Of a stretch of DNA of 64,000 bases, positions 9,677 to 39,599 are shown one piece after another. The notes beneath the pieces are model-generated. The model did no database searches and was not told the origin of the DNA. It was given only the letters and a program-made list of their open reading frames with translations. The stretch is from the NCBI RefSeq assembly GCF_024730785.1, contig NZ_CP102830.1, positions 3,038,001 to 3,102,000 of the forward strand, written 5' to 3'. Positions within the stretch are counted from its first letter, which is position 1. Each line of letters begins with the position of its first letter. Source of the DNA: Pseudomonas sp. LS44. Lineage in GTDB: Bacteria > Pseudomonadota > Gammaproteobacteria > Pseudomonadales > Pseudomonadaceae. Made by a program: the position numbers and the translations under genes.

Positions 9677-10981
9677 ATGCTCAAACACAATTGGCGACAT
9701 CTGCTGGTTATCCTCATCGTGCTTATCCTGGGCGCCGCCCTACTGCTCTGGAGCCGCCCGACCACCCACGCACGGATCGCCCAGCAAAAATTGCCCGACG
9801 GCAGCACGGCGACTCTCGCCACGCCGGCCAACGCACCGAAGACCCGAGTGCTCCTGGCGGTGAATGGTGCGCAACAGCTGAGCGATGTCGAACTGCTCGC
9901 GCTGGCCGAACGCGGCAATGCGCGTCTATTGCAGATCGAGTTGCCGGCCAACGATTGCCCTGCACAACAGCACCGTCTGCAAGCCGCCAGCCGCGTGCTG
10001 GGCGGCGCGCCGCAGTTAATTGCCGGGATCGGCCCGGGCGCGGCATTCGCCTGGCGCTGGCTCGCCGGCCAGACCAGCGACCAGGCAAACGCCCTGTCCA
10101 TCGACTTCGACCTGCAACACCCCGATTGCCCCACGGCGCTGCCGCAGCAAGCCGCGCACGGCCACTGGAGCATCGCCTGGAACGACAACCCCGACGCCGC
10201 CAGCGCCGCCTTCGCCCGCAATCAGAACAACGCCAGCACCCGCATCAGCGATTACGACACGACGCTGCCGCAGCTGCTTGCCCAGCAGTCGCAGGCCTTA
10301 CTGCAAGGCGCAGGCGAGGCTCTACCGGTGATCGAGGTGCCGGCCAACAAACCGGTGGAAACCGTCACCCTGTTCTATTCCGGCGATGGTGGCTGGCGCG
10401 ATCTGGATCGCGGTGTGGCAGAACAAATGGCCCAGCGGGGCTACTCGGTGGTGGGCATCGATGCGCTGCGTTACTTCTGGCAGCACAAAAGCCCCGTTCA
10501 AGGCGCCGCCGATATCAGCCAGCTGATGAAAACCTACCGCGAACAGTGGGGCGCCAAGCGCTTCGTGCTGGCCGGTTATTCGTTCGGCGCCGATGTACTG
10601 CCGGCGTTCTACAACCAACTGCCGGCCGCCGATCAGCAGCAAGTAGACGCCCTTCTGCTGCTCGCCCTGGCGCGCAGCGGCAGCTTTGAGATCGAAGTGC
10701 AGGGCTGGCTCGGCAAGGCCGGCCAAGAGGCCAGTACCGGGCCAGAACTGAACAAACTACCGACCGCCAAAGTGCTGTGCGTATACGGTGCGAAGGAAGC
10801 CGAGGAAAGCGGCTGCACGCAGCCGGACGCGGAGGGCGAACGCTTGCAGCTGCCCGGCGGCCACCACTTCGACGAGAACTACCCAGCCCTTGCTGAACGC
10901 CTGCTACAAGCCGTACGGCAACGCCAAGGCGACTCTACCCCCGCTCAGGTCAACCAGGAAAACTCCGGCGTCAGCGGTTAA
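9677..10981 (+). CDS. AcvB/VirJ-family protein, probable periplasmic alanyl-PG hydrolase
   Basis: A 434-residue protein with an N-terminal membrane helix (about residues 8-24), two alpha/beta-hydrolase-like halves and a VirJ/AcvB signature region: YSGDGGWRDLD, VVGIDALRYFW, LAGYSFGADVLPAFYNQLP. The serine in GYSFG is the expected nucleophile. In P. aeruginosa the gene after mprF (PA0919, from memory) removes alanine from alanyl-PG in the periplasm, so this pair sets the level of the modified lipid. The start is the first ATG after a GGCTCCC gap; the operon with mprF is strongly implied by the 7-bp spacing. Confidence 0.85.
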   Translation: MLKHNWRHLLVILIVLILGAALLLWSRPTTHARIAQQKLPDGSTATLATPANAPKTRVLLAVNGAQQLSDVELLALAERGNARLLQIELPANDCPAQQHRLQAASRVLGGAPQLIAGIGPGAAFAWRWLAGQTSDQANALSIDFDLQHPDCPTALPQQAAHGHWSIAWNDNPDAASAAFARNQNNASTRISDYDTTLPQLLAQQSQALLQGAGEALPVIEVPANKPVETVTLFYSGDGGWRDLDRGVAEQMAQRGYSVVGIDALRYFWQHKSPVQGAADISQLMKTYREQWGAKRFVLAGYSFGADVLPAFYNQLPAADQQQVDALLLLALARSGSFEIEVQGWLGKAGQEASTGPELNKLPTAKVLCVYGAKEAEESGCTQPDAEGERLQLPGGHHFDENYPALAERLLQAVRQRQGDSTPAQVNQENSGVSG

Positions 10982-11644: not shown

Positions 11645-13552
11645 TTAGATTTCGACCTGGGTTCCCAGCTCGATCACCCGGTTCAACGGCAGATTGAAGT
11701 AGCGCAGATTGCCGTTGGCGTTCTTCAGCAGGAAGGCGAACAACACCTCGCGCCAGCGCGCCATCCCGACCACTTTCGACGGAATGATGGTTTCCCGACT
11801 GAGGAAATAGGTGGTGCGCATCGGGCTGAAGTCCAGCTCGCTGAGGTGGCAGAGGCCGAGCGCGGCGGGAACGTCGGGCTCTTCCATGAAGCCGAAGTAC
11901 AGCGTCACCCGGAAGAACCCATCGCCATAGGCGTCCACCGCAAACCGCCGATCCTCCGCCACCCGCGGCGTGTCCTGGCTGATCACCGTGAGCAGCACCA
12001 CCTGCTCGTGCAGCACCTGGTTATGCAGGAGGTTATGCAGCAAGGCATGCGGCACCGCATCCGGCCGCGCGGAAAGAAACACCGCCGTGCCCTTGACCCG
12101 GTGCGGCGGATCGCTGCGCAGGCTGCCGATGAAGATTGGCAGCGACAGCGCCACTTCGTCGAGATGCTCCACCAGCAGCTGACGGCCGCGCTTCCAGGTG
12201 GTCATCAGGATGAACAGCGCGATCCCCGCCAGCACCGGGAACGCCCCGCCCTGGACGACCTTGGGCAGATTGGCGGCGAAGAACAGGCTATCGACCACGA
12301 GGAAACCGAGCACCAGCGGCACCGCCAGCAGCGGCGGCCATTTCCACAGCAGCAGCATCACCACGCCCATCAGCACCGTGGTGCACAGCATGGTGCCGGT
12401 CACCGCCACCCCGTAGGCCGCAGCCAGTGCGCCGGACGACTCGAAACCGAGCACCAGCAGGACCACCGCGATCATCAGCGCCCAGTTCACCGCGGCGATA
12501 TAGATCTGTCCCTGCTCGTGCCGCGAGGTGTGCTGGATGACCATCCGCGGCACATAGCCGAGCTGGATGGCCTGCTGGGTCAGCGAGAAGGCCCCGGAGA
12601 TCACCGCCTGGGAGGCGATCACCGTGGCCATGGTCGCCAGCCCCACCAGCGGCAGCAGCGCCCAGTCCGGCGCCAGCAGGTAGAACGGATTGCGCGCGGC
12701 CTCGGGGTTGACCAGGATCATCGCGCCCTGGCCGAAGTAGTTCAGCAGCAGCGCCGGCAGCACCAGAATGAACCAGGCGCGGGCGATCGGTTTACGGCCG
12801 AAGTGGCCCATGTCGGCATACAGCGCCTCGGCGCCGGTCAGCGCCAGCACCACGGCACCGAGAATCGCCACGCCAATACCCGGATGGGCGATGAAAAAGT
12901 TCACCGCCCACACCGGGTTCACCGCCTTCAGCACTTCAGGCTGTTGCCAGATGCCATACAGCCCCAATGCCGCCAGGGCCAGGAACCACAACACCATCAC
13001 CGGACCGAACAGCGTGCCGATCCGCTCGGTGCCGTGCTTCTGGATCAGGAACAGGCCGACCAGCACGATCAGCGATAGCGGTACCACCCAGTGCTCGATG
13101 CCGTCGAAGGCGATCTCCAGGCCCTCGACCGCCGACAGTACGGAAATCGCCGGGGTGATCATGCTGTCGCCATAGAACAGCGCCGCGCCGATCAGGCCGA
13201 AGATCACCAGCACCGTGCGTAGCCGTGGGTACTCCTGGGCGGCGCGCAAAGCCAGAGTGGTCAGCGCCATCACCCCGCCCTCGCCCTGGTTGTCGGCGCG
13301 CATCACGAACAGCACGTACTTGATCGACACCACCCAGATCAGCGACCAGAAGATCAGCGAGAGCACGCCGAGGATGCCGTCATGGCTCACCGGCACGCCA
13401 TAACCGCCAATGAACACTTCCTTCATGGTGTACAGCGGGCTGGTGCCGATATCGCCATACACCACCCCGACGGCGGCCACCAACAGGCCAACGCCAGAAC
13501 GTGCATGGGTTTCGGAGTGTTGCTCAGCGGTGCCTACGGCGGCATTCGACAT
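11645..13552 (-). CDS. kup: Low-affinity potassium transport protein Kup
   Basis: A 635-residue inner-membrane K+/H+ symporter of the KUP/HAK/KT family. The N-terminal signature [19 protein letters not shown] is intact, and 12 hydrophobic segments are followed by a roughly 180-residue cytoplasmic tail, the usual length for Kup. A TTG precedes the chosen ATG by one codon. It has a terminator downstream. The gene is the last core gene before the integron; the inverted repeat ATATAG-AAG-CTATAT lies about 90 bp upstream of the start. Confidence 0.95.
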
Positions 13553-13638
13553 CAAGGCTCATTCCTGTCCTGAAAATAGTCGGCGCATCCTGCTCCGGCC
13601 GAGTCGGCTACACAAGGGAGGAAGGCGTGTCTGAATGA

Positions 13639-13653
13639 ATATAGAAGCTATAT
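13639..13653. promoter_or_regulatory. Perfect inverted repeat upstream of kup
   Basis: ATATAG-AAG-CTATAT, 6-bp arms around a 3-bp centre, in the 162-bp gap between kup and the integrase stop. It could be a regulator site for kup or simply part of an AT-rich promoter. No matching regulator is known to me. Confidence 0.3.
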
Positions 13654-13714
13654 ATCCGAAATACGCGTTGCTCTGCGACTTATCCGCACCGATCCCATCA
13701 GGCGCAAACATCCC

Positions 13715-14677
13715 TCAGTGATCCAGCGGACTTCGGACACCCAAGCCGCCGCGATTGAGCACATGGGTATAGATCATGGTCGTTTTAACATCGGCGTGCC
13801 CCAGCAGTTCCTGCACCGTACGGATGTCCTGACCCCGCTCCAGCAAATGAGTGGCAAAGCAGTGACGCAGCGTATGCGGGGTTGCCAACTTCTCGATGCC
13901 CGCCGCCCCGACCGCAGCCTTGAATGCTCGCTGCACCCTCTTCTCGTCCACGTGATGACGGCGAGTCTTGCCACTGCGTGGATCGAGCGATAGCCCCGAC
14001 GCTGGAAACACATACTGCCAAGCCCACTCCCACGGAGCTTTTGGATATTTGCGCTCCAATGCGAACGGCAAATACACGTCTCCGCGCCCCGCCTGTAGCT
14101 CCACCTGATGAGTAGCTTTGATCACCGCCAAATGTTGCTTCAATGCGGGCTGCAGACGTTCTGGCAATACGGTTACCCGATCTTTCATACCCTTCCCGTC
14201 ACGAATCAAGATCTCCTGCCGGGAGAAGTCGACATCTTTAACCCGTAACCGCATTACCTCCATCAACCGCATGCCTGAGCCATACAACAAACTCGCAATC
14301 AACCACAGTTCGCCCTGCAACTGCGATAACACCTGTTGTACTTCGCCAACACTCAGCACCACAGGCAAGCGCACAGGTTTCTTGGCCCTCACGACCTCAC
14401 CGAGCCAGGGCAAGTTGAGCTTCAGGACTTGTTTATAAAGAAACATCAATGCAGCCAGTGCCTGATTTTGCGTCGACGCAGACACATTGCCACGAATGGC
14501 GAGATCGGAAAGAAACGCCTCTACCTCAATCGCCTCCATTTCGACAGGATGACGATATTTATGAAATCGAATGAATCGCTTGACCCACTCGCAATAGACT
14601 CGCTCCGTGCGAATCGAGTAGTGTTTCAAACGAATCTGCTCCCGCACTTGATCGAGCAGCTTAGGCTTTCCATCCAT
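13715..14677 (-). CDS. intI: Integron integrase (tyrosine recombinase)
   Basis: A 320-residue tyrosine recombinase of the integron class. Catalytic set: R137 ([12 protein letters not shown]), K162, H268 and R271 ([15 protein letters not shown]), H294 (LGHADVKTT), Y303 (MIYTH). The insert that marks integron integrases and binds the extrahelical bases of folded attC lies at about 205-246 ([19 protein letters not shown] ... RHHVDEK). No frameshift or missing catalytic residue is seen, so the enzyme looks functional. It is transcribed away from the cassettes, with attI about 60-130 bp upstream of its start, the standard integron layout. It resembles the chromosomal integrases described in P. stutzeri and P. 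alcaligenes (recall). Catalytic numbering is offset by nine residues from IntI1. Confidence 0.97.
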
Positions 14678-14680
14678 GGT

Positions 14681-14697
14681 GTATAACTCCCTTATAC
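14681..14697. promoter_or_regulatory. Inverted repeat next to the intI start
   Basis: GTATAA-CTCCC-TTATAC, a perfect 6-bp inverted repeat starting 3 bp before the intI ATG. Reading toward intI it continues as CTGTATAA, like a LexA half-site, but there is no CAG at the right distance, so a complete SOS box is absent. It may be a repressor site or an RNA hairpin hiding the intI ribosome-binding site. Confidence 0.4.
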
Positions 14698-14733
14698 AGT
14701 CACCCGACCGCTACGACACGCAGCCTAGATGGG

Positions 14734-14815
14734 GTTAGTGAATAGGACAAGGAATGTTATCCGCCAAACCCGTGAAAGCGTTATTGCACCAATTGGTGTC
14801 TATTTATAGTTAGGC
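14734..14815 (+). other. Probable attI recombination site
   Basis: The region between intI and the first cassette ends in the core site GTTAGGC (14809-14815), where cassettes would be joined (between G and T). A second core-like GTTAGTG lies at 14734, and a perfect 12-bp palindrome CACCAATTGGTG lies at 14787-14798. A weak promoter toward the cassettes is possible (TTGCAC 14784, TATAGT 14805, 15-bp spacer). The left edge is estimated; only the GTTAGGC end is firm. Confidence 0.7.
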
Positions 14816-15139
14816 GTCAGTAACTTTTGGACTCGGTGCAAAACATGGAAGTTGGGTTAGTCACCGCACTCTCAGTATTTATTCCGCATCTACCGCGCGG
14901 CCGGCAAACTCGCCGTGATCGTCGTGCGGGCTATCGCCCCGTCGCCGCCCTGGCTGGCGCACACGCGCCGTGCACAAGTGTTTTCCTGCTATGCAGTACG
15001 TGCTTGAAAGTTCGCAGCGGCTCGGCCATCGTGCCGCAATCAACAACTCGTCGGCCCGGGCATCTTCGCCTAACTAGCGGTTCAAGGCCGCTCGCTGCGC
15101 TCGCTCGGGACCGCGTTCCGCGGCCCCTTAACCTGAACG
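14810..15139 (+). other. Cassette 1: no recognisable gene
   Basis: A 330-bp unit directly after attI, GC-rich in its middle, ending in attC1. No reading frame resembles a known family. An open frame runs through attC1 into cassette 2, which is not credible as a gene. A short frame MQYVLESSQRLGHRAAINNS... (14993-15079) ends inside attC1. It may be a decayed cassette, a non-coding RNA or a promoter cassette. Confidence 0.5.
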
Positions 15140-15145
15140 TTAGGT
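15068..15145 (+). repeat. attC1 (78 bp)
   Basis: Runs from R'' GCCTAAC to R' GTTAGGT. Inner arms GCGGTTCAAGG and CCTTAACCTGAACG pair with a one-base bulge; the centre GGACCGCG-TTC-CGCGGCCC adds a second stem. It belongs to the 76-78 bp Pseudomonas-type class. Confidence 0.9.
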
Positions 15146-15151
15146 GCTTAC

Positions 15152-15445
15152 ATGGAATCAGTGAAAAATCTAGAAATCGGTGTATTTCAGCGATTTACAA
15201 GAAAGCAACGATTTACGTTCAACCTGCTTTTCTTAATGCTACTCACCGCCTATCCGGCAATATCGTTTCTGATGTCAATGATCACTCCCGGCACAGATGC
15301 TGGGATGTACGGTGTTATGTTTCAACTGTCCTGCATGCTAGGCCATTTTTTCCTTTTTTGGTCTGTTGGTGCCGTTCGAATTAGGTATATTGCTATATTC
15401 CTATTAGTGCTAGGAGTATCCATATTTCTTGGCACCCAAAGTTAG
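15152..15445 (+). CDS. Cassette 2: small two- or three-helix membrane protein
   Basis: A 97-residue protein starting 7 bp after the core site. Hydrophobic segments at about 22-44, 56-74 and 77-93 predict an inner-membrane protein; the first 20 residues are charged (MESVKNLEIGVFQRFTRKQR). No family is recognised. The stop codon TAG lies inside an extra GTTAGGC at 15441-15447, immediately before attC2, so the gene fills the cassette completely. It is more AT-rich than the chromosome. Function unknown; small membrane proteins are common in cassettes. Confidence 0.75.
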   Translation: MESVKNLEIGVFQRFTRKQRFTFNLLFLMLLTAYPAISFLMSMITPGTDAGMYGVMFQLSCMLGHFFLFWSVGAVRIRYIAIFLLVLGVSIFLGTQS

Positions 15446-15447
15446 GC

Positions 15448-15524
15448 ACCTAACAATGCGCTCAAAGCGCTCACTTCGTTCGCTGGGACCGGCTAAAGCC
15501 GGCCCCTTAGCTTAATCGTTAGGC
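15448..15524 (+). repeat. attC2 (77 bp)
   Basis: ACCTAAC to GTTAGGC. It shares CAATGCGCTCAAA and CGCTCACTTCGTTCGCTGGGA with attC5; the hairpin core is CCGGC-TAAA-GCCGG. Pseudomonas-type class. Preceded by another GTTAGGC (15441), which makes GTTAGG-CA-CCTAAC. Confidence 0.92.
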
Positions 15525-15541
15525 CCACATGGGGAATTTCA

Positions 15542-16210
15542 ATGAGCCTTGATGCAATCGTTGCGCGAGCTGACCAGCTAATAGTCATGGGGCAACAGGT
15601 AGTTGCCACGCGACATTCTTCGGGATATGGATCAGACGCGGTTGAAAGCGCCCCGATGAAAGGTTTCCGCGCAGCGGCACTCTCGTTTATCGATCGCGTC
15701 TACAGCCGCGACCATCCGCATTTCGCAGAGTTTGAAATCAGCACTAATGACAGCTGGTTCTACAACGCGGAGAATGGGCTAGCCATCGTCCAAACTATTC
15801 GCGATGAGATCGCCGGCGGCTGGTTGTTTACTGTTCGAGGCTTGGTTGCCGCGGAGGTTTTCGCCGATTTTCTCGAAATGGCGGAGCATCTACTCGAGTC
15901 CGGCTACAAGGATCCTGCTGCGGTCATGGGTGGAAGCGTTCTCGAAGAACACTTTCGGCAACTGTGCAACAAGCACGCGATACCGATCGATGAACAGAAG
16001 AATGGTAAGCAAGTGCCCAAAAAGGCTGATCGTCTCAATGCTAAACTGACCGCTTCGACTGCATACTCGAAGCTCGATCAGAAGCAAATTACGGCCTGGC
16101 TGGATTTGCGAAACAACGCCGCACATGGAAACTACAACGCTTATACCGCTGAACAAGTAGAACAGCTTCTAGCAGGTGTAACTAACTTCATGGTTCGCGT
16201 CCCGACGTAG
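15542..16210 (+). CDS. Cassette 3: HEPN-like protein
   Basis: A 222-residue soluble, mostly alpha-helical protein. The motif R190-NNAA-H195 (LDLRNNAAHGNY) is an RxxxxH HEPN signature, and GGSVLEEHFRQLCNKHAI at about 130-147 resembles the second conserved helix seen in HEPN proteins of this type. HEPN domains often act as RNases in toxin-antitoxin and antiphage systems (established), but many members are only accessory, so a nuclease role is inference. There is no partner antitoxin gene next to it: the next unit is a GNAT protein. The ATG is 23 bp after the core site; the stop lies 6 bp before attC3. Confidence 0.75.
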   Translation: MSLDAIVARADQLIVMGQQVVATRHSSGYGSDAVESAPMKGFRAAALSFIDRVYSRDHPHFAEFEISTNDSWFYNAENGLAIVQTIRDEIAGGWLFTVRGLVAAEVFADFLEMAEHLLESGYKDPAAVMGGSVLEEHFRQLCNKHAIPIDEQKNGKQVPKKADRLNAKLTASTAYSKLDQKQITAWLDLRNNAAHGNYNAYTAEQVEQLLAGVTNFMVRVPT

Positions 16211-16216
16211 CAGTGG

Positions 16217-16276
16217 ACCTAACAATTCGTCCAAGCCGACGCCGCTCTGCGGCGCAGCTTAACTCAGACGTTAGGC
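16217..16276 (+). repeat. attC3 (60 bp)
   Basis: ACCTAAC to GTTAGGC. Short hairpin arms CAAGCCGACGCCGC and GCGGCGCAGCTTAA around a tiny loop. It is of the 60-bp class, like attC4 and like many mobile-integron cassettes, not the 76-bp Pseudomonas class. Confidence 0.92.
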
Positions 16277-16338
16277 GCCACAAGCACACTTGCGAGGCGA
16301 CTCGGCCTTGATTCAAAGCAACTAGGAGTCACACCTAA

Positions 16339-16839
16339 ATGACGGACGCTCGGGCAATTGTGGGCAAGGCGACGGCCGCCGACCTTGACGGGATTCTTGA
16401 GCTTCAAGCGGAAAATCAGATCGACCGGGGCGGCGCCCTGTCGGCGAGTCTGTCGCGTTCCAGAGTGGCCTCAATGATGCGTGACATGCCGCTGATCGTC
16501 GCGCGGCGCGACGGACTTGTTACCGGCTTTCTCATGACGACTACGAGGGCAATGAACGCCGATCTGCCTATAGTCCAGGCAATGTTCACTGCATACCAAG
16601 GTGCGCCAAATGCCTATGTCTATGGCCCCATCTGCGTCGGCGCAGAGGAGCGCGGAAAGGGAATGGCGCAAGCTATGTTCAAAGAACTGCGAGCCTTGGA
16701 GCCAGGCCGTGAAGGCATCTTGTTTATACGCCGCGATAACGAGGCATCGCTAAGAGCGCATGCCCGTATGGGAATGCATGAGGTCGCCGAGTTCCAGTTC
16801 AATGGCTTCGATTTCGCAGTTTTTTCTTACATCGGCTGA
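16339..16839 (+). CDS. Cassette 4: GNAT-family N-acetyltransferase
   Basis: A 166-residue acetyl-CoA-dependent acyltransferase. The acetyl-CoA-binding motif A is PICVGAEERGKGMAQAMFKEL (R/Q-x-x-G-x-G/A pattern), followed by motif B around FIRRDNEASLRAHARMGMHEVAEF. The first about 60 residues form the variable substrate region. The substrate cannot be told from sequence; it is not one of the aminoglycoside acetyltransferases I know. Start ATG has AGGAG upstream. It is bounded by two 60-bp attC sites, unlike its neighbours. Confidence 0.88.
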   Translation: MTDARAIVGKATAADLDGILELQAENQIDRGGALSASLSRSRVASMMRDMPLIVARRDGLVTGFLMTTTRAMNADLPIVQAMFTAYQGAPNAYVYGPICVGAEERGKGMAQAMFKELRALEPGREGILFIRRDNEASLRAHARMGMHEVAEFQFNGFDFAVFSYIG

Positions 16840-16867
16840 CCATCGTGTGCCGGCGTCGCAGGGTGGC

Positions 16868-16927
16868 GCCTAACAATTCATTCAAGCCGAACCCGCTTCG
16901 CGGGTCGGCTTAATTCAGGCGTTAGGT
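16868..16927 (+). repeat. attC4 (60 bp)
   Basis: GCCTAAC to GTTAGGT with arms CAAGCCGAACCCGC and GCGGGTCGGCTTAA around TTC. Nearly the same outer sequence as attC3 (CAATTC...TCAGRCGTTAGG). Confidence 0.94.
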
Positions 16928-16946
16928 AACACACAAGGAGAACTCA

Positions 16947-17138
16947 GTGGCCAATCTGCCAGGACCGCAACCTGATATTCAGTTCTGCCCAATCTGCCAA
17001 GGCAATCTTCGAAATATCCCAAGAAATGAAATGCGTTCAAGAGCTTATGTTCGGCGCGATGGTACAGTTTCAGAGCACACACATACTTATGAGTGTGCTG
17101 CGTGCAACACACGCTTTGAAATAAACCAAGAAAGGTAA
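16947..17138 (+). CDS. Cassette 5: 63-residue zinc-ribbon protein
   Basis: A very short protein with two knuckles, C14-PI-C17 and C50-AA-C53, as in a zinc ribbon. Between them lie a basic stretch (RNEMRSRAYVRRDG) and HTHTYE, which may add a histidine ligand. The start is GTG at 16947, chosen because AAGGAG sits 6 bp upstream. No family name is known to me. Possible roles are nucleic-acid binding or a partner to another protein; neither is shown by sequence. Confidence 0.7.
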   Translation: MANLPGPQPDIQFCPICQGNLRNIPRNEMRSRAYVRRDGTVSEHTHTYECAACNTRFEINQER

Positions 17139-17157
17139 AGGGGTGTGCCGGTGAGTC

Positions 17158-17233
17158 ACCTAACAATGCGCTCAAATCGCTCACTTCGTTCGCTGGGACC
17201 GCGTTCCGCGGCCCCTTAGCTTAATCGTTAGGC
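17158..17233 (+). repeat. attC5 (76 bp)
   Basis: ACCTAAC to GTTAGGC; almost identical to attC2 outside the central stem (here CCGCG-TTC-CGCGG). Exactly 76 bp, Pseudomonas-type. Confidence 0.94.
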
Positions 17234-17243
17234 AAAAGAGAAA

Positions 17244-17969
17244 ATGGTGCCTAGAAAACAAAAGAGAAAGCTACTAGAGCAGCCACAACCGGTTATAAAT
17301 CGATGGTTTGCGATAAAAGCAATCCGAATCTCCCGACCTTACGTCGAAAGTACTCTAAGAGTATATCTCCGCGCAAAACTTACATATCAGGAAAGAAAGC
17401 GATCAGCTGCATTAACATCAGCACTAGATACCACAATTAAAGAACTCAAGAAGCTAAATGCAAGCAAATTTGAGTCGCTGAAAGTATTCTTCAATCTCTC
17501 TCTTTTCTTTCTTATTGCAGAGAAAGACATTCAAGCTGTTAAGGTAGATGCCCTATCTCACCCCGACGCATGGAAAAGAAATCTCTCTTTGCGCATCATG
17601 TTGTTAGTCATACATGAGTGGGACATGGCTAAGGTTGCGCCCGCAAATAAGCTACGAGAAGCATATGAGGCTGCGAGCATTAGCCAAGAGCTAAGAGAGG
17701 AAATGACAGAGGCATTTCGAAAAATCAACAAGGCACACTCCAAAGCAAAACAACTATTGGCGCACGCTAGGCATGCCACAATTGCACACAGAGATGCTGA
17801 CGCAATGCTCCAATATGAAACAATTACCAATTTAGACGCAATGGAAACCATGAAGGTGGCCGCCTCATTCTACGAAGGGGCAGACCTATTTATTCAAGCA
17901 TTACCCAAGGTAATGCTTGAAGCCGGCAGCATTCATTCACTGCTCAAGCAATACAGTAGGCATGCCTAA
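17244..17969 (+). CDS. Cassette 6: HEPN-like protein, AT-rich
   Basis: A 241-residue basic, all-helical protein. Near the C-terminus is ARHATIAHRD, with R176 and H182 spaced as in HEPN R-x4-6-H motifs; IAHRD is typical of AbiU2/AbiV-like HEPN proteins. The N-terminus is strongly basic (MVPRKQKRKLL). Much lower GC than the flanking chromosome and other codon use, a sign of foreign origin. It is unrelated in sequence to the cassette 3 protein. TAA overlaps the attC6 R'' site (GCCTAAC). A defence or toxin role is possible but only inferred. Confidence 0.7.
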   Translation: MVPRKQKRKLLEQPQPVINRWFAIKAIRISRPYVESTLRVYLRAKLTYQERKRSAALTSALDTTIKELKKLNASKFESLKVFFNLSLFFLIAEKDIQAVKVDALSHPDAWKRNLSLRIMLLVIHEWDMAKVAPANKLREAYEAASISQELREEMTEAFRKINKAHSKAKQLLAHARHATIAHRDADAMLQYETITNLDAMETMKVAASFYEGADLFIQALPKVMLEAGSIHSLLKQYSRHA

Positions 17970-18040
17970 CAAGTGGTTCAAGTCGTTCGCTTCGCTCACT
18001 CGGGACGGGCTAAAGCCCGCCCCTTAACCAAACGTTAGGC
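17964..18040 (+). repeat. attC6 (77 bp)
   Basis: GCCTAAC to GTTAGGC. Arms GTGGTTCAAG and CTTAACCAAAC pair with one extrahelical C; central stem GACGGGC-TAAA-GCCCGCC. It contains the stop of the cassette 6 gene. Confidence 0.94.
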
Positions 18041-18056
18041 ACTCACTCGGCCGCTT

Positions 18057-18662
18057 ATGCTCACACTTACTCGCCTGATCCTTGCTGTGCTTACGCTAGT
18101 AGCCATTGGCCAACAACTGATCCTTCATGTTGCTGCGTCCTACAGCGTGCTGAACTTCTTCAGCTACTTCACGAACCTATCCAACATCTTCGCCGCTCTG
18201 ATCCTACTTCTCAGCGTGTTCTTGAACAGAAGCAGTTCCCAAGAACTTGCCAAGTACGCGTCGACCGTCAACATGGTCGTCGTGGGTCTCGTCTTCGCCA
18301 TACTGCTCAGGAACGTAGATCTCGGCGCATTGCTTCCTTGGGTCAACTTCGTCCTCCACTACCTCATGCCAGTGGCTGTCGTCCTCAATTGGCTGGCAGC
18401 ACCCCCAGCCACCAAGCTGCGTCCAAAGCACATGCTCATTACCTTGGTGTTCCCAACTGCGTATCTCGTGTACGTCTTGGTTCGCGGCGCAAGCACTGGC
18501 TGGTACCCGTATCCATTCCTCAATCCAGCAAATGTCGGTGGCTATGGTGCCGTGGCCGCGTACTCGCTGGGCATCACCGCAACCTTTCTTATCGCGAGCT
18601 GGGCGCTACTCGTTATTGGCAACCGTTTGGGCAGTTCAAAGCGTCACAATGCAAGCGCCTAA
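18057..18662 (+). CDS. Cassette 7: Pr6Pr-family membrane protein
   Basis: A 201-residue protein with about six transmembrane segments. Family marks are FFSYFTNLSNIFAALIL (about 34-50), VLHYLMPVAVVLNWL (about 98-112) and the late WYPYPFLNP; these are the conserved positions of the Pr6Pr / FAR-17a-AIG1-like family. Some eukaryotic relatives hydrolyse fatty acid esters of hydroxy fatty acids using Thr and His in these segments; T39 and H100 are in place here. The bacterial role is not established. The stop TAA lies in the attC7 R'' site. Confidence 0.8.
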   Translation: MLTLTRLILAVLTLVAIGQQLILHVAASYSVLNFFSYFTNLSNIFAALILLLSVFLNRSSSQELAKYASTVNMVVVGLVFAILLRNVDLGALLPWVNFVLHYLMPVAVVLNWLAAPPATKLRPKHMLITLVFPTAYLVYVLVRGASTGWYPYPFLNPANVGGYGAVAAYSLGITATFLIASWALLVIGNRLGSSKRHNASA

Positions 18663-18720
18663 CAAATCGCTCACTTCGTTCGCTGGGACGGGCAGCCCGC
18701 CCCTTAACCTAACGTTATGC
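18657..18720 (+). repeat. attC7 (64 bp), truncated
   Basis: GCCTAAC to GTTATGC. Compared with attC2 and attC5 it lacks about 9-13 bp of the left inner arm (the GCGCTCAA part), so CTTAACCTAACG has no complement. The R' core GTTATGC departs from GTTRRRY at one base. Recombination at this site is probably impaired. Confidence 0.8.
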
Positions 18721-18797
18721 ACTAATGGCGCGCGGCAGGATCTGGCTCAATAGTTTAAGCTGATATTATTAAAGTATTTACAAGTTGAGTATAAAAC

Positions 18798-18959
18798 ATG
18801 AATCGGCGTAAAAAAATAAATCAGCTATTAAAGGCTCATGCCAAAAAAGCTAGTGCCAAATTGGCACCAAAAAGTAAGTCTAAATACATTAGTAAAGCTG
18901 ACCGATTGAAGCTAGCCGCTGAATCCAGTCAAGACCCAACCATTTCTTCTGAGAGCTGA
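18798..18959 (+). CDS. Cassette 8a: DUF2986 mini-protein
   Basis: A 53-residue, very basic protein starting MNRRKKINQLLKAHAKKAS and containing KLAPKSKSKYISKADRLKLA; this is the DUF2986 pattern, as I recall it from Vibrio and Shewanella and from Pseudomonas cassettes. Function unknown; the charge suggests RNA, ribosome or DNA contact. The upstream 80 bp is AT-rich (TGATATTATTAAAG) and may hold a promoter. No attC separates it from the broken gene at 19087. Confidence 0.75.
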   Translation: MNRRKKINQLLKAHAKKASAKLAPKSKSKYISKADRLKLAAESSQDPTISSES

Positions 18960-19086
18960 TATACGCATCTTAAGCGCAAGGTATCTCTATATAATGGCTG
19001 TTACGGTATTCTGTGTGTGAATCGCCCCGCATACACCGAGTGGCATTACCCACGAATATAAACATAAGATTTCACTGGAGAGCCGT

Positions 19087-19417
19087 ATGCCATCCAAGGC
19101 TGAGATCGCAAGTTTCCTGGCCACCGAGCTTCCGCAAACCAAATGCACGGTCGAGTCGGTCGGCAATTGGCAGTGGCTGATGTGGCTTTGTATGTCGCTA
19201 TCCTGGGGGAAATCGGCATTGTTCCCCTGGCAGTGACCACCAGCTTGAGCATCAACTTCCTACGCAAGCCTTCGGCCAACGGCGTATGCGCACTCATGAA
19301 GGTCGGCAAGTCCTTGGCGATCGGCAAGGTAGCTTTTATTCGGAAGGAATGGAGGTACCCGTTGCCCATGCCGTGGGCACGTACTCCATCCCGAGAGAAC
19401 GTACGCAAGGAAGCTAA
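19087..19417 (+). pseudogene. Cassette 8b: disrupted PaaI-type (hotdog) thioesterase
   Basis: Three frames must be joined to read the family. The N-terminus MPSKAEIASFLATELPQTKC...VESVGN runs to about 19167. It then continues in another frame as AVADVALYVAILGEIGIV through SLSINFLRKPSA to about 19333, and in a third as FYSEGMEVPVAHAVGTYSIP to the stop at 19415-19417. About 25 residues normally present between VGN and AVADVALY are missing (family knowledge), as are a few near SAN-GVC. A single-frame product would stop after about 49 residues. The start has a GGAG site. Clearly decayed. Confidence 0.85.
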
Positions 19418-19491
19418 CCTTTCCATCGAGCCGGCATCCGTAGCACGCTCGGATTGTTGTTTACGGCCGCCACTCATTTCAAACGTTAGGC
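19412..19491 (+). repeat. Degenerate attC8
   Basis: Only the right core GTTAGGC (19485-19491) is clear. AGCTAAC at 19412 may be the ruined left core. The middle shows no convincing hairpin. Confidence 0.5.
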
Positions 19492-19507
19492 GCCACTAGG
19501 AGGAGCC

Positions 19508-19924
19508 ATGCCCGATCAAACGCTTGAAGTTGAAGGTGGTTGTCAATGCGGAGCGGTTCGCTACCGCATCGAAGGTGAGCCGGTGATGGCGGCGCTCTGT
19601 CATTGCTCGATGTGTCGGCGTGCCAACGCGGCGCCAGCGGTTGCTTGGGCAATGTATGAACGGCTAAAGGTGTCCTTTCTCACCGGCTCGCCTTCGATCT
19701 ATGAGTCATCGCCCGGTGCCCAGCGCGGCTTCTGCTCTCGCTGCGGCACGCAGATATGCTTCACGGCGGAGTACATTCCGGGGCTGATCGATATCACGAT
19801 CGGTAGCCTGGATGATCCAACCCTGGTTCCGCCTACCTTTCACTATTGGGAATCCAGGCGCCTGCCTTGGTTACACGTGGCCGATCAGCTTCCCAGCTAT
19901 CCAGAGTTTCCTCCAACCGAATAG
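19508..19924 (+). CDS. Cassette 9: GFA-family (glutathione-dependent formaldehyde-activating-like) protein
   Basis: A 138-residue protein with the full zinc-binding cysteine set of the GFA fold: C12 and C14 (GGCQCGAVRY), C31, C33 and C36 (CHCSMC), C76 and C79 (FCSRCGTQ). Typical GFA length. The family includes Gfa, which joins formaldehyde and glutathione, but most members have no known substrate. AGGAGG lies 5 bp before the ATG. It is the last intact gene of the array. The chromosome also encodes glutathione-dependent formaldehyde oxidation (adhC, fghA at 42-44 kb), but there is no evidence that this cassette serves it. Confidence 0.88.
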   Translation: MPDQTLEVEGGCQCGAVRYRIEGEPVMAALCHCSMCRRANAAPAVAWAMYERLKVSFLTGSPSIYESSPGAQRGFCSRCGTQICFTAEYIPGLIDITIGSLDDPTLVPPTFHYWESRRLPWLHVADQLPSYPEFPPTE

Positions 19925-19964
19925 GCGCTGCGCTAGATGCGCCTTACCCTTCCCTTGAGCTGAC

Positions 19965-20040
19965 GTTAGACACACGCGTGATCCGTCAGCCGCGGAAGGT
20001 CAACCAACTGGCGCCCCCCCCCCATTCTCAATCGTTAGGC
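19965..20040 (+). repeat. Remnant attC9/attC10 cores at the array end
   Basis: GTTAGAC at 19965-19971 and GTTAGGC at 20034-20040 with no clear left cores. The 69 bp between holds no gene but has a C10 run at 20014-20023. The following 160 bp to 20204 shows nothing recognisable. Confidence 0.55.
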
Positions 20041-20204: not shown

Positions 20205-20609
20205 ATGGCCTCCATTCGCAAAGAAGTTTCCTTCAATGTTTCTGCAGAGCAACTGTGGGACGCCGTTCGTGATGTCGGCGCCTTGCATACTCGGCTGGTA
20301 GTCGGTTTCGTCACGGACTGCCACCTGGAGGGTGGTGTGCGGATCGTCACATTCGCCAACGGGTTGGTCGCGCGCGAGCTGATTGTCGACGTGAATGACG
20401 CGGATCAGCGCCTAGTCTGGGCTGTCGTCGATGGCCAACTCTCCCATCACAACGCCTCGGTGCAGGTCTTTGCCGATGGCGCGCAGCGCTGTCGCCTAGT
20501 GTGGATTGCCGACTTGTTGCCGAATGAAATGGCGCCGGCCATCGAGGCGATGATTGAACAGGGCCTGTTGGCCATGAAAAATACCCTGGAGCAGGTGGCT
20601 AAAGACTAG
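20205..20609 (+). CDS. SRPBCC-family protein
   Basis: A 134-residue START/Bet v1-like protein: MASIRKEVSFNVSAEQLWDAVRDVGALHTRL is the typical N-terminal beta strand and helix, and the C-terminal helix LPNEMAPAIEAMIEQGLLAMKNTLEQ is also typical (polyketide cyclase/dehydrase group). The ligand is unknown. It follows the last integron core site by 165 bp, with no attC after it, so I read it as the first chromosomal gene beyond the array rather than a cassette. An ancient cassette cannot be excluded. Confidence 0.78.
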   Translation: MASIRKEVSFNVSAEQLWDAVRDVGALHTRLVVGFVTDCHLEGGVRIVTFANGLVARELIVDVNDADQRLVWAVVDGQLSHHNASVQVFADGAQRCRLVWIADLLPNEMAPAIEAMIEQGLLAMKNTLEQVAKD

Positions 20610-36488: not shown

Positions 36489-36622
36489 AAAAAAAGGGGC
36501 GGTTTGACCCGCCCACTCTTTTGTCCCTAGTCCCTTTATTTCCGGACTCATCATCCTGATGAATCGCATCCTGCGATTTCCTGACCTCCATCCTTGGCGG
36601 CCTGTGCCGATCCTTCGACACA
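36489..36622 (-). ncRNA. rsmZ: Small regulatory RNA RsmZ
   Basis: About 134 nt on the minus strand between fdxA and rpoS, the known place of rsmZ. It carries at least eight GGA-type motifs (AAGGATCG, CAAGGATGG, GTCAGGAAAT, GCAGGATGC, ATCAGGATGAT, CCGGAAAT, AGGGAC twice). The 5' hairpin TGTGTCGA-AGGA-TCGGCACA exposes one in its loop. The 3' end is a terminator GGGCGGG-TCAAA-CCGCCCC plus seven T. RsmZ soaks up RsmA/CsrA and frees target mRNAs. Ends are predicted from the hairpin and T tract. Confidence 0.9.
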
Positions 36623-36859: not shown

Positions 36860-37864
36860 TTACTGGAACAACGCATCACTCGACAAACCATTTTTTTCAA
36901 AAATCTCACGCAGACGCTTCAATGCCTCCACCTGGATTTGTCGTACACGCTCACGGGTCAAACCAATTTCCTGCCCGACCTCTTCCAAGGTGCAGCTTTC
37001 ATGGCCACGCAGACCAAAACGTCGCACTACCACTTCACGCTGTTTATCAGTAAGTTCGGATAACCATTGATCGATGCTTTGCGACAGGTCGTCATCCTGC
37101 AACAACTCACATGGATCAGTCGGACGGTCATCCGTCAGGGTATCGAGCAATGTTTTATCGGAGTCAGGGCCAAGCGACACGTCTACGGACGAAACACGCT
37201 CATTTAGGCCGAGCATGCGCTTGACCTCCGCCACTGGTTTTTCCAGCAGATTGGCGATTTCTTCAGCGGAGGGTTCGTGATCGAGCTTCTGAGTTAGTTC
37301 GCGGGCGGCCCGTAAGTAGATATTGAGTTCTTTAACCACATGGATCGGCAATCGAATCGTGCGGGTCTGGTTCATGATCGCCCGCTCAATAGTCTGCCGT
37401 ATCCACCAAGTCGCGTAGGTAGAAAAACGGAAGCCACGCTCTGGATCGAATTTCTCTACGGCGCGAATCAGACCCAGATTGCCCTCTTCGATCAGGTCGA
37501 GCAGGGATAATCCTCGATTGACATAGCGGCGCGCGATTTTTACCACTAATCGAAGATTGCTTTCGATCATGCGTTTGCGGCCAGCCGGATCGCCTTTTTG
37601 CGCCAGGCGCGCAAAGTAGACTTCTTCTTCCGGAGTTAGCAGTGGGGAAAAACCAATTTCGTTGAGGTACAACTGGGTTGCATCTAGAGCGCGGGTGTAA
37701 TCGATGTACTTGTGTTGTTTCAGTGCTGTAGCGCCTTTTGGCTTGGCGCGTTTGACAGGAGCTTCTGGCTCCTCGCTCAACACTTCGTCTAAGACAAGGG
37801 CAGGCTCCATGAGGAGAACGTCATCGTCATAGTCAAACTCCGGCGCTTCTTTGTTGAGTGCCAT
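36860..37864 (-). CDS. rpoS: Stationary-phase sigma factor RpoS
   Basis: A 334-residue sigma38. Region 1.2 [21 protein letters not shown], regions 2.1-2.4 from [62 protein letters not shown], region 3, and region 4.2 [28 protein letters not shown]. The start [15 protein letters not shown] is the family one; an in-frame ATG 17 codons up gives an unconserved leader. In the nlpD-rpoS order, part of rpoS transcription usually starts inside nlpD. Confidence 0.97.
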
Positions 37865-38812: not shown

Positions 38813-38921
38813 CCAACTCTCCCTTTCTGGTGACTACCAAGTGGAAACTTCAAACTCAACGACACGACGGAAATTGCCACGTTGCTATCGATCAGGCACA
38901 GCCAGAACCCTGACATCACCT

Positions 38922-39599
38922 TCAAACAGTCGGCCCGTTAAGTAAAGGCACAAAGCGCACCGCATCCAATACATGCCGTGAAAAACCTTGTTCTTCACGG
39001 ATGATCAACTGCAGTTGCTGGACATCCCCGGCGCCTACCGGAATCACCAGACGGCCACCCGGTGCGAGTTGATCGAGCAGTGCTTGAGGCACCTCCGCAG
39101 CAGCGGCCGTAACAATGATGCCATTGTAGGGAGCCAATGCGGCCCAACCCTGCCAGCCATCTCCCCAGCGAAACACCACATTGCGCAAATTGAGTTCGAC
39201 CAGCCGCTCTTTGGCGCGATCCTGCAGGACCTGAATGCGTTCAACTGAAAACACTCGCTCCACCAGTTGCGCCAGCACTGCGGTTTGATAACCAGACCCT
39301 GTACCGATTTCCAGGACTTTATCCAGCGGGCCGGCCGACAGCAGCAGCTCGGTCATTCGCCCGACCATGTAAGGTTGGGAGATCGTCTGGTTATGACCGA
39401 TCGGTAGCGCGGTGTCCTCATACGCACGATGGGCCAAGGCCTCATCGACGAACAGATGGCGCGGCGTTCGACGAATCACTTCGAGCACGCGAGGGTTCGA
39501 CAGACCCTCATCATAGAGCCGCTGAATCAACCGTTCGCGGGTACGCTGCGAAGTCATTCCAATACCACGGCGTTGCAAATCGTCCTGCTCACGGGCCAT
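38922..39599 (-). CDS. pcm: Protein-L-isoaspartate O-methyltransferase
   Basis: A 225-residue SAM enzyme that starts repair of isoaspartyl damage. [32 protein letters not shown] is the substrate region, [16 protein letters not shown] the SAM loop and FVPLLNG the end. The ATG overlaps the surE stop by one base (TGATG), which favours this start. A second ATG at 39557 ([10 protein letters not shown]) gives the 211-residue form known from P. aeruginosa. Confidence 0.94.

Follow-up and report, generated by a model that had tools for sequence, protein, structure and literature searches.

The locus described here lies in a 64,000-nucleotide stretch of the Pseudomonas sp. LS44 genome (contig NZ_CP102830.1, positions 3,038,001 to 3,102,000 of the forward strand), which as a whole is called the window and to which all positions refer. 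Between 13715 and 20040 it holds an integrase gene, an attI region and a series of gene cassettes that, judging by sequence, very probably constitute a Pseudomonas-type sedentary chromosomal integron, with an intact integrase (IntI), attI, seven attC sites and a decayed outer tail. The element is chromosomal: it is part of a single 4.46 Mb contig, with kup on one flank and the genes from RluF to FinR on the other, and the flanks are syntenic with the loci L110, L117, L118 and L119. The features are the following, with the strand in brackets.

13556-13714 (no strand): junction between the kup promoter side and the intI stop, the position of rimO in several relatives (alignment with L110)
13715-14677 (minus): intI, intact gene of an integron integrase of 320 amino acids (TIGR02249, 2a3v, relative in genome G014)
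14690-14815 (plus): attI region and first core, GTTAGGC at 14809-14815 (comparison with relatives)
14809-15138 (plus): cassette 1, gene-less; attC at 15068-15145, 72.8 bits (BLASTN copies in L041 and L144-L149)
15139-15517 (plus): cassette 2, orphan protein of 97 amino acids (15152-15445); attC at 15448-15524, 83.1 bits
15518-16269 (plus): cassette 3, RiboL-PSP-type HEPN protein (15542-16210); attC at 16217-16276, 32.9 bits
16270-16920 (plus): cassette 4, GNAT-like acetyltransferase, a weak match (16339-16839); attC at 16868-16927, 28.7 bits
16921-17226 (plus): cassette 5, small zinc-ribbon-like protein (16947-17138); attC at 17158-17233, 82.9 bits
17227-18033 (plus): cassette 6, all-helical protein of 241 amino acids with an invariant R-x5-H (17244-17969); attC at 17964-18040, 96.2 bits
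18034-18713 (plus): cassette 7, Pr6Pr membrane protein (18057-18662); attC at 18657-18720 with core GTTATGC, 57.1 bits
18714-20040 (plus): decayed outer tail with a DUF2986 gene (18798-18959), a broken 4HBT thioesterase gene (about 19087-19485) and a GFA gene (19508-19924)

The integrase scores 489.5 bits against TIGR02249 (cut-off 265) and its closest solved relative is 2a3v (IntI4; E 3.6e-89, residues 8-319). As had been predicted from the sequence at the outset, the catalytic residues (R137, K162, H268, R271, H294 and Y303) and the integron-specific insert (residues 199-226, aligned to 2a3v) are all present; their roles we take to be those generally assigned to them. A full-length relative, 83% identical, is found in genome G014. 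Integron integrases are carried by 6 of the 35 other genomes of the genus that were searched (G001, in two pieces, G004, G008, G013, G014 and G028), while G012 and G035 contain short integrase pieces interrupted by stops. The remaining matches in the genus (E 5e-17 and weaker) we take to be Xer-type or other tyrosine recombinases. The broken integrase of G001 lies at 9890-10829 of locus L114, split into two frames, with rimO adjoining.

When 21 relatives were aligned from the start of intI, their sequences were common up to the GTTA at 14809 and diverged directly past it, as expected at the junction of attI and the first cassette; the attI-type junction of the original prediction is thus confirmed. 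The attC sites were searched for with a covariance model made from 20 sites at 12 other loci, i.e. from no sequence of the window. The model found seven full attCs over the array (28.7-96.2 bits), all on the minus (bottom) strand, and the next best match in the window reached only 12.6 bits (E 1); a covariance search for attCs is the check that the original prediction had proposed. The two weakest true attCs are of a 60-base type, which the model covers poorly. Ten matches were obtained in the whole genome, where 150 of 1672 first-look candidates were scored, and seven of them are within the array. The core motif is likewise concentrated here: counting both strands, the window has 22 copies of GTTAGGY, versus 6.4 expected and a maximum of 12 in 100 shuffles, and 18 of the 22 fall in 14809-20040. 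A regular expression combined with folding recovered six sites in the array and two outside it (37775-37859 and 38854-38943); the latter two were dropped, as they are absent from the matches of the covariance model.

It had also been proposed that eleven GTTRRRY-like cores mark ten units. Eleven cores do exist, one of which, at 18714, reads GTTATGC and does not fit GTTRRRY, but the number of units has to be reduced: the cores at 19485, 19965 and 20034 score only 8.0-11.6 bits with filters off and have no full attC, so that the array consists of seven full cassettes followed by a decayed tail in which the last three cores are remnants. Two genes of the tail pass their profile cut-offs (DUF2986, PF11661, 69.1 bits; GFA, PF04828, 88.2 bits). 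The thioesterase gene is broken, since an intact relative in L131 aligns to it in two frames and over residues 57-136 of 141 only. In another part of the LS44 genome, a lone attC (L131 5732-5799, G000:C1 3429732-3429799) lies roughly 0.3 kb from this intact gene; the attC is at the 3' end of a gene for 306 amino acids without a family match. Two further attCs without an integrase are at L130 6067-6137 and 7547-7621 (G000:C1 2699067-2700621), accompanied by an NMCC_0638-family gene and a DUF5625 gene, and look like a small cluster of attC sites lacking integron-integrases (CALIN-like). An SRPBCC (Polyketide_cyc2) gene lies outside the array at 20205-20609, between the array and RluF; at E <= 1e-20 it was found in 1 of 59 genomes of the genus, namely its own, and in none of the other 58.

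Integrons in general gain cassettes by IntI-mediated recombination of attC with attI, show an age gradient along the array and are transcribed from a promoter near attI. In the present element, IntI would recognise attC as a folded bottom strand on excised, circular cassettes, which it would insert at attI (14809); the newest cassettes would sit nearest intI, the oldest would decay at the far end, and the array would be read from a promoter near attI. It may speak against this picture that no consensus sigma-70-like promoter (Pc) was found in 14600-15160. One may also ask whether the element is a fossil in which the parts are still recognisable and cassette movement has ceased. The decay of the outer 1.3 kb, with its remnant cores and broken thioesterase gene, would fit a fossil, as would attC 7, which has the core GTTATGC and lacks 12 of the 76 model positions. 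Such a state is nevertheless unlikely in our view, as intI is intact, attCs 1-6 retain both cores and the fold, and decay at the far end is expected in a live array. The integron of Pseudomonas sp. LS44 is, on these sequence features, probably a working element. The TIGR02249 match, the comparative attI and the independent attC model thus uphold what had first been described, a complete chromosomal integron whose integrase is intact and whose array is mixed. The open reading frames of the window also place every cassette gene on the plus strand, as had been stated. The same gene order was not seen as plain conserved chromosome: the four sites without intI carry rimO between kup and RluF. The claim of a rare assortment of genes has to be withdrawn, since a mix of uncharacterised genes is ordinary for integrons; the integron itself adds another array to a known class.

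The first cassette deserves separate attention. It has no recognised gene and is bounded by attI and attC, in agreement with the gene-less unit noticed initially, and BLASTN raised the number of copies to eight in six Pseudomonas genomes, seven of them in five genomes other than that of LS44. The body of the cassette (14816-15066) aligns at 77% with 249 bases of P. kuykendallii (L041), where the aligned stretch sits precisely between a pair of attCs. In a survey of the genus the cassette was found in at least 4 of 397 other genomes with at least six copies (G655 and G767, one each; G555 and G013, two each); both numbers are lower bounds, as two candidates were scored per genome. All copies are flanked by att sites, those of the window and of L145 by attI and an attC and the rest by two attCs, one of which is cut by the locus end in L147; the cassette is thus found directly after attI, in the first position, in two genomes. 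Compared pairwise, the eight copies never share what comes after the cassette, with the sole exception of L145 and L149 from one genome; this is to be expected of a mobile unit. Pairwise identity is 71-88% among seven copies, including that of the window, and 60-68% for the eighth. The region had no plasmid match (14740-15064), no phage match and no exact 18-mer in viral contigs, and none of 173 other genomes matched in a sample of the order.

What such a cassette might do is a matter of weighing several explanations. It might be a small protein gene starting at the ATG at 14845. This frame is open in seven of the eight copies, which counts against a non-coding role, and in the first alignment block it has the lowest ratio of nonsynonymous to synonymous differences (pN/pS) of the six frames (0.73, the other five 0.79-1.10). 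On the other hand, the differences are spread almost evenly over the three codon positions (19.5, 22.1 and 24.5%; permutation p 0.22), the same frame (offset 2 by our reading) has a pN/pS of 1.11 in the second block, where the minimum of 0.56 belongs to a minus-strand frame with many stops, the frame has no Pfam match, and in the window it continues through the attC. A protein gene is therefore unlikely, and we think as little of the chances of a structured small RNA. Three things would suit an RNA: the sequence is conserved with no evident coding signal, alignment columns 214-234 contain a conserved stem, and a passage of PMC12444791 mentions sRNA-Xcc1 for Xanthomonas integron cassettes. Yet the folding z-scores range from -1.49 to 1.52 over both strands of the eight copies, the covariation term is +0.35 with two-sided changes in 5 of 47 pairs, and Rfam gave no match at the gathering threshold in the integron region.

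We favour a regulatory cassette as the best guess, with chances that are about even. The search of 14600-15160 gave no consensus promoter site for it, but the passages of PMC11014356 that bear on this point report that most of 29 gene-less cassettes of Vibrio were active as promoters and state that promoter cassettes cannot be identified in silico; with the coding and RNA tests being weak or negative, it is this combination that leads us to prefer a regulatory role. The gene-less cassette would most likely act on the array as a DNA element, e.g. as an internal promoter as in Vibrio. More broadly, and with a confidence somewhat short of even, we speculate that these copies belong to a family of Pseudomonas cassettes that encode no protein, are kept at the nucleotide level and have been carried by integrases from species to species and to different places in the genome; each would be a portable regulatory part (promoter or RNA), selected for its sequence and not for a protein. 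The eight natural att-bounded variants from six genomes make it possible to ask concretely whether gene-less cassettes form a functional class. The passages of PMC11014356 name gene-less cassettes of Vibrio and Treponema; a gene-less cassette family of Pseudomonas was not found in the literature on gene-less, ORF-less or non-coding cassettes, in a search that did not extend to the classic Pseudomonas integron papers, so an earlier description is possible.

The insertion site has a peculiarity of its own. The rimO gene lies between kup and RluF at all four sites that have no intI in the 20 kb fetched. Among 31 pseudomonad-type loci (25 picked from 80 relatives and six from further genomes), rimO is at most 3.3 kb from intI in eight and at most 0.3 kb in six; in L034 and L039 an open frame of 742 codons is between the two. 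In Pseudomonas sp. LS44, rimO is absent from the window and no RimO match reaches the cut-off anywhere in the genome, where the best match of this search is MiaB (612.8 bits to TIGR01574). The cut-off is passed in 98 of 99 genomes of the genus, with Pseudomonas sp. LS44 alone failing. The region 13401-13649 aligns with the start of kup and the intergenic sequence of L110, and the alignment, read by eye, stops some 140 bases short of where rimO starts in L110. As the kup-side homology ends at 13649 and rimO is absent, we infer that the gene was lost between kup and intI.

It is possible that the integron caused this loss between the intI stop and the kup promoter. It is precisely this gene that several relatives have between intI and kup, and the genus otherwise retains it; the case would then be a possible example of an integron flank costing its host a conserved gene. 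The evidence is not one-sided: rimO is away from intI in 23 of the 31 loci (several of which end early or lie elsewhere), the loss is one event only, and no integron-derived junction sequence could be identified at the kup/intI junction by comparison with L110. A loss unrelated to the integron is accordingly a serious alternative, to which we would grant a little under half the weight. Passages of PMC11551772 describe a sixfold drop of rimO expression upon deletion of the Vibrio cholerae superintegron, a parallel that is probably a coincidence, and a passage of PMC4482086 names Polaromonas rimO as a target of a mobile element; in the passages of these two papers no account of rimO beside a Pseudomonas integron was found.

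The gene-bearing cassettes are a mixed set. The 97-residue protein of cassette 2 has no homologue at E <= 0.001. The protein of cassette 3 has 2865 relatives at the same threshold and passes PF18735 by a margin of 0.4 (28.8 bits, cut-off 28.4); R190-x4-H195 is invariant in an alignment of 21. The covariance model was applied to six loci of other genomes with homologues. Two of them have the gene between attCs: L138, where this is clear, and L141, where the two flanking sites (E 0.0024 and 0.072) belong to a series of six. L137 and L142 have a weak attC at the 3' end (E 0.022 and 0.016), and L139 and L140, which count on the other side, show no attC. As a candidate RNase this protein would serve phage defence or a toxin-antitoxin pair. 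Phage-defence roles of integron cassettes are already in print, according to references in the part of PMC12444791 consulted, so that the HEPN cassette is a candidate only.

Two HEPN-like proteins had been expected. The first stands, if narrowly; the second, the 241-residue protein of cassette 6, matched no HEPN model at E <= 0.1, and fold searches gave it no specific relative and no HEPN title among the matches listed. Its AlphaFold2 (AF2) model is all-helical (predicted local distance difference test score, pLDDT, 88.7). A search listed 77 proteins of this family, itself included, and in an alignment the R-x5-H is invariant; the family was found in 3 of 369 genomes of the class and 1 of 398 of the genus, its own genome being counted in both; two relatives (L134 and L135) have no attC detectable by the covariance model. 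The names GNAT and zinc ribbon, too, turned out to be below the cut-offs of Pfam and NCBIfam: the former protein scores 18.8 bits against PF00583 (cut-off 20.7), and the latter has sub-threshold zinc-ribbon matches only, with a 62% identical relative in an integron-bearing Rhodocyclales contig (L047). Pr6Pr (NF038065, 103 bits), like DUF2986 and GFA, is above its profile cut-off.

When the ten genes (the cassette genes and the SRPBCC gene) were compared with 130 loci other than their own at E <= 1e-5, four had a relative, namely the first HEPN gene, the zinc ribbon, the 241-residue protein and GFA. The relatives of the HEPN and 241-residue proteins sit in loci fetched with those same proteins, which leaves the zinc ribbon and GFA as the independent finds, both in L047. 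PADLOC accepted no defence protein among the ten; its two IetA matches, with E 0.003 and 0.07, concern 28 residues of the GNAT-like protein. The whole array matched 3721 plasmid records, 3584 of them with the best place at 80-90% identity, covering at most 9% of the query. Three matches among the best 20 of the 3721 are on genes: GNAT (plasmid of Sphingomonas paeninsulae, 77.5% over 485 bases), GFA (Eleftheria terrae, 68.6%) and a PaaI thioesterase (69.9%). Many of the others among these 20 we read as shared attC, because they lie in resistance-cassette regions at positions fitting attC. Elsewhere in the window, the small RNA RsmZ was found at 36489-36622 (122 bits), an ordinary feature of Pseudomonas.

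It is useful to compare the LS44 integron with known systems. Chromosomal integrons of the P. stutzeri and P. alcaligenes types were reportedly described by Holmes in 2003 and by Vaisvila in 2001. The LS44 element resembles these sedentary integrons in its IntI (up to 86% identical to named Pseudomonas relatives), in the 76-base type of attC and in the same attI, and it differs from them in having its own cassette set and in lying directly beside kup, with rimO lost. The integron of Pseudomonas sp. CC6-YY-74 (L023) adjoins genes that we take to be gcvT-like and glyA-like, not kup or rimO, so the platform is found at more than one site in the genus. With respect to the RiboL-PSP-HEPN family PF18735, the protein at 15542-16210 is a member by its score and is distinguished by being a gene cassette. 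Finally, like the promoter cassettes of the Vibrio superintegron in the passages of PMC11014356, the gene-less cassette is bounded by att sites and has no recognised gene; in contrast to them, it occurs in Pseudomonas and belongs to a family conserved at the nucleotide level across several species, with a promoter role that is putative.

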